Assembly: GCF_963664965.1 (NCBI RefSeq)
Contig: NZ_OY761823.1
Location: forward strand, 3,552,001-3,616,000
Origin: an uncultured Pseudodesulfovibrio sp.
GTDB taxonomy: Bacteria > Desulfobacterota > Desulfovibrionia > Desulfovibrionales > Desulfovibrionaceae
Direction of reading: 5' to 3'
DNA length: 64,000 bases
Shown: one piece after another, positions 7,243 to 11,054 of the stretch
How positions within the stretch are numbered: the stretch's first letter is position 1
Layout: each line of letters starts with the position of its first letter
Made by a program: the position numbers and the translations under genes
The notes under the pieces: generated by a model
The model's input: only the letters and a program-made list of their open reading frames with translations
The model's database searches: none
Told to the model about the DNA's origin: nothing

Positions 7243-8442
7243 ATGCGTCCCCTTCCGCACACCGCCAGCGTGCTGGCCATGCTGATTCTCTGCACGGGCC
7301 TGCTCTGCGCGTGCGCTCCGAAACGCAACGGCCTGCCCGCCACCCTGCAAACACAGGCAACCATCAACGGACTGGCCCCGGATACCATCCGCTCCTTCGG
7401 CGACACCGCACCGAAGCATATGGATCAGGGCATTGGGTCATGGGCAACCGTCATCCAAAACGGCCCATACGCATCAGCCCCGTTGACCATGCTCAGTCTC
7501 TCCGGCGGCGGTGCGGACGGAGCCTTCGGTGCCGGGATCCTGTCCGGCTGGTCCGCACGGGGTAATCGTCCGACCTTCACCATGGTCACCGGCATCAGTA
7601 CAGGCGCGCTGATTGCGCCGTTTGCCTTTCTCGGACCGGAATACGACATGCTGCTCAAGCTGTTCTACACCACATTCTCCACCGAGGACCTTGCCCGCCC
7701 ACTCCCTGTAGGCTCCGCCATCAGCCGCAACGGGTTTTTCAGCACGAAACCGCTCAGGGAAGCACTCAAACAGTACATCTCGACAGAAGTCATCACCAAG
7801 ATCGCCACGGAATACCGCAAGGGCAGGCGGCTCATCATCGGCACCACCAACCTTGACCTCATGCGCCCTGTCTACTGGGATATCGGGGCCATCGCACAAC
7901 ACCGGAGCGAGAAGAACGACCAGCTCATCCGGGACATCATCCTTGCCTCGGTTTCGGTTCCCGTGGCATTCCCGCCGGTCTTCATCTCTCTGGAAGCAGA
8001 TGGAAAAACGTATGACGAAATGCATGTGGATGGCGGCGTCACCAATCAGGTCTTCGCCTACCCGGTCAGTCTCGATCTGAAAAAGGTGCTCGCACAGTTC
8101 AGCGAAAAACGCTCGGTCTCCCTGTATGTCATCCGCAACGGCACCCTTACGGCACACGCTGAAACCGTGGAAGCGAGCCTTGCCGACATCGCGGAAAAAT
8201 CCATGACCAGCCTCATCCGCAATCAAGGGATCGGTGACCTGTACCGCATCTACTACACTGCCCAGCGGGACAGCGTTGACTTCCACCTCGCATTCATCCC
8301 CCCTTCTTTTCAGGAAAAACCGGAGGAGGACGAAATGTTCAGTACCCCGTACATGAAAGAACTCTTCCACCTCGGCTATAACACCGCACTCCACGGCGAT
8401 CCGTGGCATGATGCACCGCCAGCCGACTTCTCGCGCAGATAG
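7243..8442 (+). CDS. patatin-like phospholipase lipoprotein
   Basis: A 399-residue protein with a lipoprotein signal ending LLCACAP. The patatin fold is clear: an oxyanion-hole glycine run SGGGADGAFGAGIL (about residues 86-99), the nucleophile elbow GISTG, and the catalytic Asp in DGGVTNQV. It therefore has the Ser-Asp dyad of a lipid acyl hydrolase. AAGGAG precedes the start. It is the last gene of the TetR-RND operon, ending just before a terminator. Co-transcription with an efflux pump suggests a role in envelope lipid turnover or in responding to membrane-active compounds; this is inference. Confidence 0.88.
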   Translation: MRPLPHTASVLAMLILCTGLLCACAPKRNGLPATLQTQATINGLAPDTIRSFGDTAPKHMDQGIGSWATVIQNGPYASAPLTMLSLSGGGADGAFGAGILSGWSARGNRPTFTMVTGISTGALIAPFAFLGPEYDMLLKLFYTTFSTEDLARPLPVGSAISRNGFFSTKPLREALKQYISTEVITKIATEYRKGRRLIIGTTNLDLMRPVYWDIGAIAQHRSEKNDQLIRDIILASVSVPVAFPPVFISLEADGKTYDEMHVDGGVTNQVFAYPVSLDLKKVLAQFSEKRSVSLYVIRNGTLTAHAETVEASLADIAEKSMTSLIRNQGIGDLYRIYYTAQRDSVDFHLAFIPPSFQEKPEEDEMFSTPYMKELFHLGYNTALHGDPWHDAPPADFSRR

Positions 8443-8551: not shown

Positions 8552-8673
8552 TGAAGCAATGATAATTTTTACGATTCCATGGACTTTTTTCAAAAAAACG
8601 TGTTCATATGGGGTCATAACTCCATTTCCAAAAGTGGAGAGGGTTGCGACAGGCTCTAAAAAGGAGGGTGCTC

Positions 8674-10398
8674 ATGTTTACGATTCACTGGCGATGGTTC
8701 TGCGCCGTACTGATCGCACTGCCGCTCATGGCGGTGCTGGCTGCCGACGCTTCCGCTGCGATTGAACCGGAAAAGGCTCCGGGTAGAAAGATGGCGATTC
8801 AGGCCACCAAGGCAAAGCCCATCGTTCATACCATCACGGCAGACCACAGCAAATTCCCGCAATTGCAGTTTGATGCGGAACAAATGAAAACCATGAAGCC
8901 GGAAGAAGTCACCAAGGCGTGTCTGAGCTGCCATAATCAGGCCGCACTCCAGTTTCACAAGACCATTCACTGGACATGGCGTGACTCCGACGAAGATGGC
9001 AAGCCCCGCAAGCTCGGAAAAGGCGGAATATCCGTCAACAACTTCTGAATCAACATCCAAAGCAACGAGGCTCGTTGCACATCATGTCATGCTGGCTACG
9101 GATGGAAAGACAAGAACTTCGATTTTTCCTCACAGGAAAAGGTAGACTGTCTGGTCTGTCACGAACGGACAGGAACCTACAAGAAATTCCCTGCCGGTGC
9201 CGGATACCCCGCACCGTATATTGCGGACCCGGACAATCCGGGCAAGCAGAAGGGAAAGCTGTTCAAGGGCAACGGCAAAACCTACTTCGCTCCTGAATGG
9301 GACAAGGTCGCCCAGTCCGTTGGACGCCCCATGCGAAAGAACTGCGGCACCTGCCACTTCTTCGGCGGTGGCGGCGATGCAGTCAAGCACGGTGACCTCG
9401 ACTCATCCATGACCAAACCCGACAAGAACCTTGATGTCCACATGGGTTCCATCGAATCCGGCGGACAGAACTTCACCTGTGTGCGCTGCCACACCACACG
9501 CAACCACAACATTGCAGGCCGCATCTATGACAAGCCCGCAGCGGTGGAACGCAAGAGTCTGCTTCAGGATGACCTGGGCGACAAGATCATGTGCGAATCC
9601 TGCCACGGTGCCCAGCCGCACAGCAGCGGCGGCATGGATGCCAAGCTCAACGATCACACGGACAAGGTCGCCTGTCAGTCGTGCCATATCCCCGAGTTTG
9701 CCCGCGCACAGTCCACCAAGATGTGGTGGGACTGGTCCAAGGCCGGACAGCTCATGGACGGCAAGGCCAAGGTAAAGGGGCCGGACGGCAAGCCCATCTT
9801 CGTCAAGAAGAAGGGACAATTCGTATGGGAAAAGAACGTGGTGCCCGAATACTTCTGGTTTGACGGAACACTCAATTACGCCACCACCGAAGACCCCATC
9901 GACCCCACCGGCGAAGTCTGGCTGAACCGTCCCAACGGCTCCCGCAGCGATCCGAACTCCCGCATCATGCCGTTCAAGGTTCACCGGGGCAAGACGCCGT
10001 ACGACGTGACCAACAAAACCATGCTCATCACGCATCTCTTCCCCAAGAACAAGAAGGATATGGATGCCTACTGGAAGAGCTTCGACTGGCAAAAGGCCAA
10101 TGCCTCCGGCATGAAGTACGCCGGACAGCCCTACAGCGGTGAATACGGCTTTGCCGACACCACGTATGTCTTCCCCACCACGCACATGGTCGCACCGAAG
10201 GAAAACGCCCTCGACTGCGCCCAGTGTCACAGCAAGGACAGCCGCCTGAAGAACCTGACAGGCTTCTACATGCCCGCCAGAGACTCCTTCAAGGTCGTTG
10301 ACGCTGCGGGCTGGTTCGGTGCCGCAGGCGCATTGATAGCAGTCCTCATCCACGGCATCATGCGCTTTTTCGCCGGTCTCAGCAGGAAGGAGGACTAG
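8674..10398 (+). CDS. octahaem cytochrome c, tetrathionate reductase family, probable selenoprotein (in-frame TGA at 9046-9048)
   Basis: Read through one TGA, this frame encodes 574 residues with a Sec signal peptide (cleavage near residue 28), exactly eight CXXCH haem motifs (C83, C135, C159, C224, C269, C307, C334, C515) and a C-terminal membrane helix (about 546-566). That is the pattern of the octahaem tetrathionate reductase (OTR) family of periplasmic cytochromes, here membrane-tethered. TGA is codon 125, in the context VNNF-TGA-INIQSNEARC. OTR relatives have Cys after NNF, and in Shewanella OTR, as I recall, this Asn and Cys line the active-site haem. A hairpin fitting a bacterial SECIS follows (9062-9078). 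Frame and motifs continue undisturbed on both sides, which argues against a decayed gene. ATG 8674 has AAGGAGG at 6-bp spacing. The cytochrome b gene follows 2 bp downstream. Substrate (tetrathionate, nitrite, hydroxylamine or another sulfur/nitrogen oxide) is unknown. Confidence 0.85.
9046..9078 (+). promoter_or_regulatory. UGA codon plus candidate bacterial SECIS hairpin
   Basis: TGA at 9046-9048 is followed by a perfect 7-bp hairpin: GCAACGA (9062-9068), loop GGC (9069-9071), TCGTTGC (9072-9078). The loop starts 20 nt after the UGA and begins with GG. Bacterial SECIS elements recognised by SelB usually have the loop about 16-37 nt after UGA with a G in its first two positions. It lies inside the coding sequence, as bacterial SECIS elements do. 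Confidence 0.75.
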
Positions 10399-10400
10399 CC

Positions 10401-11054
10401 ATGACTGAACACAAAATGCAAAAGATCTACCTCTACTCCAAGTTCGAACGCTTCTGGCACTGGTTCCAGGCCGTGATGATCATCCTGCTCCTGGCCACGG
10501 GCTTCGAAGTCCACGGCTCCCTTGAACTGTTCGGGTTCATGAAGGCAGTCGATCTGCACAACATTCTGGGCCTGACATGGCTCGGCATGTTCTTCTTCTT
10601 TGCCTTCTGGATGTTCGTCACGCACGAATACAAACAATACATCCCGACGACGAAGAAACTCTTCGAAGTGCTCAGCTACTATTCCTCCGGCATCTTCAAG
10701 GGTGAACCCCATCCGGTCAACAAGAGCAAGAATGCCAAGCATAACCCCATGCAGCGCCTGACCTATCTGTCGCTGACAGCCATCCTGCTGCCGTTCCAGA
10801 TGATTACCGGCTTCCTGTACTGGGGGTACAACGAATGGACGGAATGGGGACTCTCCTTCCTCAATCTGGAGATCGTCGCCCTGCTCCACCTCATCGGCGG
10901 ATTCTCCATTCTCATCTTCCTCATCATCCACGTCTACATGACCACCACGGGCCATACGGTAACGGCCCATATCGCGGCCATGTTCTCCGGGTGGGAAGAA
11001 GTACCCGAGGAAGAAGAAGTCGCAGAATGGGAGAGAAAGGTGGAACGCCACTAG
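10401..11054 (+). CDS. membrane di-haem cytochrome b subunit
   Basis: A 217-residue integral membrane protein of the thiosulfate-reductase/Ni-Fe-hydrogenase cytochrome b type. Helices lie at about residues 16-38, 50-72, 115-140 and 155-180. Histidines sit in helices at FWHWF, DLHNILG and LLHLIGG/IIHVYM and can ligate two b haems. A GGAGG site precedes the ATG. It begins 2 bp after the octahaem cytochrome, so it probably passes electrons between menaquinol and that cytochrome. A terminator follows at 11078-11112. Confidence 0.88.
   Translation: MTEHKMQKIYLYSKFERFWHWFQAVMIILLLATGFEVHGSLELFGFMKAVDLHNILGLTWLGMFFFFAFWMFVTHEYKQYIPTTKKLFEVLSYYSSGIFKGEPHPVNKSKNAKHNPMQRLTYLSLTAILLPFQMITGFLYWGYNEWTEWGLSFLNLEIVALLHLIGGFSILIFLIIHVYMTTTGHTVTAHIAAMFSGWEEVPEEEEVAEWERKVERH

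Follow-up and report, generated by a model that had tools for sequence, protein, structure and literature searches.

A selenocysteine form of the octahaem tetrathionate reductase family predicted in Pseudodesulfovibrio from an in-frame TGA and a conserved hairpin

Introduction

A frame of 574 codons on the forward strand of Pseudodesulfovibrio sp. DNA (8674-10398 of the 64,000-nucleotide stretch analysed here, hereafter the window) encodes a multihaem cytochrome and is interrupted by a single TGA. The locus raises the question of whether this codon marks a broken gene, a leaky stop or a site of selenocysteine (Sec) insertion, and, in the last case, what selenium would do in a haem protein. The original prediction, made from the letters of the DNA, was that Sec replaces an active-site Cys in a cytochrome of the octahaem tetrathionate reductase (OTR) family, a family in which no selenoprotein was said to have been described. 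The claim of absence does not hold: a review of May 2026 (PMC13188914) contains one table row for a 'Tetrathionate reductase family octaheme c-type cytochrome', TIGR04315, with 1 Sec, represented by WP_331457571.1 and annotated in GenBank. Here we report a comparison of the window gene with its relatives, which bears on the identity of the codon and on the possible role of the residue.

Results

The window gene and its product

The ATG at 8674 is preceded by AGGAGG (8662-8667), a probable ribosome binding site, and the frame ends with a TAG stop at 10396-10398. Its only internal stop is the TGA at 9046-9048, codon 125, in the context VNNF-TGA-INIQSNEARCTSCH. The 574-residue product contains eight CXXCH motifs, at residues 83, 135, 159, 224, 269, 307, 334 and 515 (CLSCH, 8920-8934; CTSCH, 9076-9090; and further motifs at 9148-9162, 9343-9357, 9478-9492, 9592-9606, 9673-9687 and 10216-10230). 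A hydrophobic stretch at the N terminus resembles a signal peptide, and another near residue 541, close to the C terminus, may be a membrane anchor. The coordinates, the number of haem motifs and the sole TGA of the original prediction were all reproduced.

Membership of the OTR family, also predicted, was borne out by a match to TIGR04315 (E 4.5e-179; 596.1 bits against a cut-off of 375) that covers positions 1-440 of the 440-position profile. The Shewanella OTR structure (PDB 1sp3) matches the window protein over most of its length (E 1.6e-114), and the TGA column falls on the Cys of its NNFC, which by counting through the alignment is chain position 64. Among the best 80 of 141 relatives, the nearest named ones were Salidesulfovibrio brasiliensis and Pseudodesulfovibrio loci.

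The expectation that automatic gene callers would split the gene was correct for a plain ORF listing of the window, which reports two frames, 8644-9048 and 9331-10398, in place of a single gene. It is too broad as a general statement: WP_331457571.1 is annotated as a selenoprotein in GenBank, so some annotation does keep such genes whole. Two nucleotides downstream of the cytochrome gene, on the same strand, 10401-11054 encodes a cytochrome b561-type membrane protein (PF01292), a probable quinone-side partner as judged from the domain match and from gene order in relatives. The upstream gene, 7243-8442, encodes a patatin-like phospholipase-type protein, with weak NCBIfam matches to anti-phage phospholipases that lie far under the cut-offs.

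A candidate SECIS hairpin follows the TGA

Downstream of the TGA a perfect 7-bp stem is formed by GCAACGA (9062-9068) and TCGTTGC (9072-9078), which enclose the loop GGC (9069-9071). The end of its 3' arm coincides with the first codons of the second CXXCH motif. The stem begins 13 nt and the loop 20 nt after the TGA, distances that had been given correctly in the original prediction. Perfect stems of at least 7 bp at that distance follow 30 of the 2421 TGA trinucleotides on both strands of the window. The folding energy has a z of -2.02, and 6 of 200 shuffled sequences fold equally well. Folding energy of the single window sequence is weak evidence alone, and it is the comparison among relatives that decides. 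RF00031 (SECIS_1), a model of eukaryotic SECIS, gave no match in the source genome, nor in any of 14 control genomes, and so carries no weight either way. The apical loop GGC has the G expected of a bacterial SECIS; conservation of this nucleotide is stated in a figure legend of PMC1794560.

The codon-125 column among relatives

A scan of genome contigs yielded 141 relatives, and in the best 80 of these the column is occupied by TGC or TGT in 72 cases and by TGA in 8. Cys is aligned with codon 125, as had been anticipated. With loci from genome searches added, 235 genes holding the motif were collected, and removal of twelve near-copies (at least 98% identity) left 223 distinct genes: TGC 113, TGT 57 (Cys 170 in all) and TGA 53. 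This set is enriched for TGA, because all TGA rows of a search in 288 genomes were fetched and not all Cys rows, and frequencies are therefore taken from two other counts. One TGA was found in 20 of the 87 matches over the OTR family cut-off in the 288 genomes, which lie within the taxonomic family, and in 32 of the 79 such matches in 395 genomes sampled across the phylum. No TAA or TAG was reported among either the 87 or the 79 over-cut-off matches.

Six loci fell outside the motif pattern and were read by eye. L159 and L240 have Cys in NDFC, L238 and L239 have TGA, and the OTR-like L237 and L249 have Thr and Ala, respectively, at the column; the last two, with neither Cys nor Sec, indicate that some relatives can do without the residue. 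A below-cut-off row, G330, had been reported with TAG; the stretch, read as L240, shows the Cys in NDFC just mentioned.

Two types of hairpin accompany the TGA

Downstream of the column, genes were searched for perfectly paired stems of 7 bp or longer that enclose a loop of 3 to 6 nt. Such a stem was present in 51 of the 53 TGA genes and in 1 of the 170 Cys genes; in the other two TGA genes, L194 and L198, the stem is the same except that one of its pairs is G-U. The co-occurrence of TGA and hairpin in other genomes, proposed as a check in the original prediction, is thus observed. Two types of stem were distinguished. Type A, found in 24 genes including that of the window, is GCAACGA-GGC-UCGUUGC. 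Type B, found in 29 genes, is YUGGUGC-AGGU-GCACCAR, with the loop AGGU in 26 and AGUU in 3. L225 has U-A at the stem base where other type B genes have C-G, and in L199, L201 and L234 the stem is extended to 9 bp. Type B SECIS occurs in L225, L222, L223 and L234 in a clade remote from the main type B clade, and in the first three of these the loop is AGUU, with Ser replacing Arg.

The hairpins are accompanied by changes of codon and of residue. All 24 type A genes read AAC GAG GCT CGT TGC at codons 6 to 10 counted from the TGA, while the 97 Cys genes that match N-E-x-R-C-T use these codons less uniformly (AAC 75, GAG 56, CGT 11, TGC 66). Codon 8 specifies Ala in all 24 type A genes and Cys in all 29 type B genes; among the 128 Cys genes that match N-[E/W]-x-R-C-T, 110 have Pro there. 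Pairing demands TGC, a Cys codon, at this place in type B, its partners being the TGC of the haem-2 Cys and the A of ACC; for type A, a Pro codon would presumably disrupt the GG in the loop, which would account for Ala. The 7-bp stem of type A is attainable by synonymous changes alone (1 to 8 of them) in 92 of the 97 N-E-x-R-C-T Cys genes, and that of type B in none of 31 N-W-x-R-C-T genes. Directly after the type A stem (window 9079-9086), ACA and TCA were seen in 18 and 17 of the 24 Sec genes, compared to 15 and 7 of the 97 Cys genes.

Among the Cys genes only L018 (4244-4303), whose Cys codon is TGT, has the type A stem intact. It groups with the Sec gene L168 with support of 100 and 99 on the two trees described below. 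The stem is probably a SECIS remnant of a former Sec gene, the other explanation being an assembly error in this metagenome-assembled sequence. Remnant SECIS structures are known in other families (PMC1794560).

A recent pseudogene, with a nonsense mutation and a coincidental hairpin, would likewise show one stop within a frame that is undamaged elsewhere. Yet this same stop codon recurs in this same column in 53 of the 223 distinct genes, TAA and TAG are lacking among over-cut-off matches, and the hairpin goes with the TGA. The dN/dS after the TGA is low (0.07 to 0.21 for the window gene against six TGA relatives, a rough estimate with synonymous sites near saturation), a sign that constraint persists downstream. 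We consider the pseudogene already refuted by conservation.

Selenocysteine machinery of the source genome

The 3.87-Mb source genome was found to contain selA, selB, selC and selD, the full set for which the original prediction had called. The tRNA-Sec (selC) scored 80.7 bits, above the cut-off, SelA 604.5 bits and SelD 320.6 bits; SelB was matched as well. The tRNA-Sec model gave one match above the cut-off and eight weaker ones in this genome, and since the cut-off was also passed in 5 of 14 control genomes, the SelA and SelB matches are needed beside it. Three formate dehydrogenases of the source genome have one TGA each, followed by stem-loops with the loop GGC or GGG. The SelD match (L259, G000:C1:1034944-1035873) also contains one TGA, and from its sequence SelD may be a selenoprotein itself. 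Presence of SelB was tried as a discriminating test and failed, because the protein was matched almost throughout, in 45 of 47 genomes that carry a TGA gene and in 93 of 98 with Cys forms only. The two TGA genomes without a SelB match, G367 and G665, are both fragmented.

A TGA might be suppressed, or read as Cys or Trp, without SelB, or it might be a site of regulated termination that yields a short haem protein besides the long one. The part upstream of the TGA would hold one CXXCH motif, and partial termination is compatible with the data; some termination besides Sec insertion is normal in SECIS-dependent recoding. Against suppression or regulated termination, the 170 other genes have Cys, not Trp, at the column, the hairpins are, L018 aside, restricted to TGA genes, and the sel genes are present. 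We consider these explanations very improbable. We estimate at about 0.93 the probability that the window gene is a selenoprotein form of the OTR family, with the TGA at 9046-9048 read as Sec by means of the SECIS hairpin, a judgement made from sequence comparison.

A second OTR-family gene and distant relatives

The source genome has a second OTR-family gene (L161, G000:C1:1726706-1727992) with the same TGA and hairpin. It is fused to further haem motifs, so that 13 CXXCH are present in frame, and is preceded by genes for NrfD-like (PF03916) and 4Fe-4S (PF13247) proteins. In the region of this second gene (L161, G000:C1:1724900-1728700, and L274) a Crp/Fnr-looking gene was noticed by eye on the opposite strand. 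Across the genus, the first OTR gene has TGA in 11 and TGC in 1 of the 12 genomes with the gene over the cut-off, and the second has TGA in 6 and TGC in 6 of 12 genomes.

The hairpin segments of the window gene and the second gene are identical at 18 of 18 positions. Gene conversion between the two genes was considered and rejected, as identity in the upstream flank (25/45) is not raised over that of Cys-Cys pairs (24 to 27/45). The identical hairpins may reflect a very short conversion tract or convergence through pairing constraints.

Distant OTR-like genes under the family cut-off, L263 and L264 (also L239 and L238), contain an in-frame TGA at SY-TGA-APPN. In the distant OTR-like search a TGA lay near the column in 2 of 11 matches (L263 and L264), at a place where the alignment is uncertain. 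The hairpins of these two genes differ, and G437, one of their genomes, gave no SelB match. By sequence they are a possible third Sec branch.

Sec and Cys replace each other repeatedly

Trees were built with FastTree (222 rows) and as an IQ-TREE quick tree (109 rows), with the stretch from the column through the next CXXCH masked. L062 holds two genes, one of which is missing from the trees, hence the 222 rows; for the smaller tree Cys and Sec rows were thinned and six long-branched rows left out. On each tree at least 9 changes between Sec and Cys are required, counted as changes with gain and loss not distinguished. The starred branches alone force 7 changes for the Cys label. Sec and Cys replace each other repeatedly in the OTR family, and the TGA always comes with one of the two hairpins. 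The existence of two different stems suggests that the SECIS arose at least twice.

A broader scenario, to which we give even odds, is that near-hairpin codons at haem 2 allowed the SECIS to arise more than once, in two unrelated designs that dictate residues near the haem. A selenolate would then recur next to a Lys-ligated c-type haem, as an active site of selenium and haem that many sulfur-cycling bacteria use and that the source genome has twice.

Haem 2 and a possible role of Sec125

The second haem of OTR, which has a conserved Lys as ligand, is described as catalytic, and the function of the enzyme is called cryptic (PMC11024163). Tetrathionate, nitrite and hydroxylamine are named as OTR substrates and a cytochrome b as partner (PMC4484225, PMC4911364). 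In the window protein the counterpart of this haem is that of the second CXXCH motif, which begins ten residues after Sec125. Lys238 (9385-9387), in GGGGDAVKHGD, aligns with the Lys at 1sp3 chain position 153, the haem 2 ligand according to PMC11024163. The Lys motif was found by pattern in 222 of the 223 genes, and L216 has DAVK by eye. Residue 125 is presumed to lie in the active site, given its alignment to Cys64 of 1sp3 and its closeness in sequence to the haem-2 motif. Of 152 loci tested, 125 have a cytochrome b561 relative encoded downstream in the same orientation, for Sec and Cys forms alike; of the remaining loci 18 have the NrfD type, 7 have neither and 2 offer too little room.

In the mechanism that we propose from these comparisons, SelB carrying Sec-tRNA would bind the hairpin at 9062-9078 and the ribosome would read the TGA at 9046-9048 as Sec. 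The protein would then be exported and, as its motifs suggest, loaded with eight haems. Sec125 would substitute for the near-universal Cys ahead of the motif of haem 2, Lys-ligated and presumed catalytic. Electrons would probably pass from quinol through cytochrome b561 and the haem chain to haem 2, where Sec125 could meet the substrate as nucleophile or reductant. Tentatively, and at somewhat less than even odds, the selenolate may attack the S-S bond of tetrathionate, thiosulfate or polysulfide, with the Se-S adduct reduced by the haems. The main alternative chemistry is reduction of nitrite, hydroxylamine or another acceptor.

Sec could also be genuine and yet structural or protective, for example guarding haem 2 against oxidants or oxygen while standing outside the catalytic cycle. 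This would agree with the fact that most OTR family members work with Cys and that L237 and L249 have neither residue, as well as with the cryptic function noted in PMC11024163. The position just ahead of the haem-2 motif and the repeated return to Sec suggest, instead, selection on reactivity, and we regard a purely structural or protective role as unlikely, while giving it appreciable weight.

Discussion

If Sec lies at the catalytic haem, selenol and c-haem chemistry are naturally paired in the OTR family, a group of enzymes for which the physiological substrate has been termed cryptic. The Sec and Cys forms, often close relatives and both found in one genus, are a ready-made set with which to test what selenium adds. 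The two SECIS designs are a case in which an RNA signal sets protein residues beside a cofactor. For annotation, with TGA in 32 of 79 family members of the phylum sample, OTR genes of this kind may often be called as two fragments.

The window gene adds a member to a selenoprotein family that is already catalogued. As far as the accessible parts of the open-access literature go, the OTR family is mentioned as containing a selenoprotein only in the table row of PMC13188914, and no OTR selenoprotein is named in the corresponding parts of PMC9312934, PMC2702500, PMC8318568 and PMC12013277. Within the same open-access literature, nothing is in print on the extent of the Sec form, on the two types of SECIS and the residue changes, on the second gene or on the repeated switching.

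The closest catalogued protein, WP_331457571.1, likewise belongs to TIGR04315 and has one Sec, likely at the same column as codon 125; its table row in PMC13188914 comes without Sec position, motif, SECIS, frequency or function. Multihaem c-type cytochromes with Sec have been known since 2007 from Geobacter (the GSU2937 cluster and the ExtKL entry; PMC1914089, PMC13188914). The GSU2937 proteins differ in that they have five CXXCH motifs N-terminally and a conserved Sec region described apart, and do not belong to the OTR family. In Thermosulfurimonas dismutans (TDIS_1882/1883) an OTR gene adjoins a cytochrome b gene, as in the window, and a membrane-linked function was proposed (PMC4911364), whereas a term search of that text found no selenocysteine.

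At the RNA level, the E. coli fdhF SECIS (NC_000913) is similar in having a TGA followed by a stem-loop within the coding sequence, and the apical part of type B, GGUGCAGGUGCACC, resembles that of fdhF, GGUUGCAGGUCUGCACC. Type B differs by lacking the bulged U and having a smaller loop, and type A, the type of the window, by its 3-nt loop GGC. Finally, the OTR of Shewanella oneidensis (1sp3) is of the same family, has eight haem motifs and NNFC in place of NNF-Sec, and the Lys of GGGGDAVKHGD is kept. It differs from the window protein in having Cys at the column, while the latter is hydrophobic near its C terminus and is encoded next to a cytochrome b561 gene.
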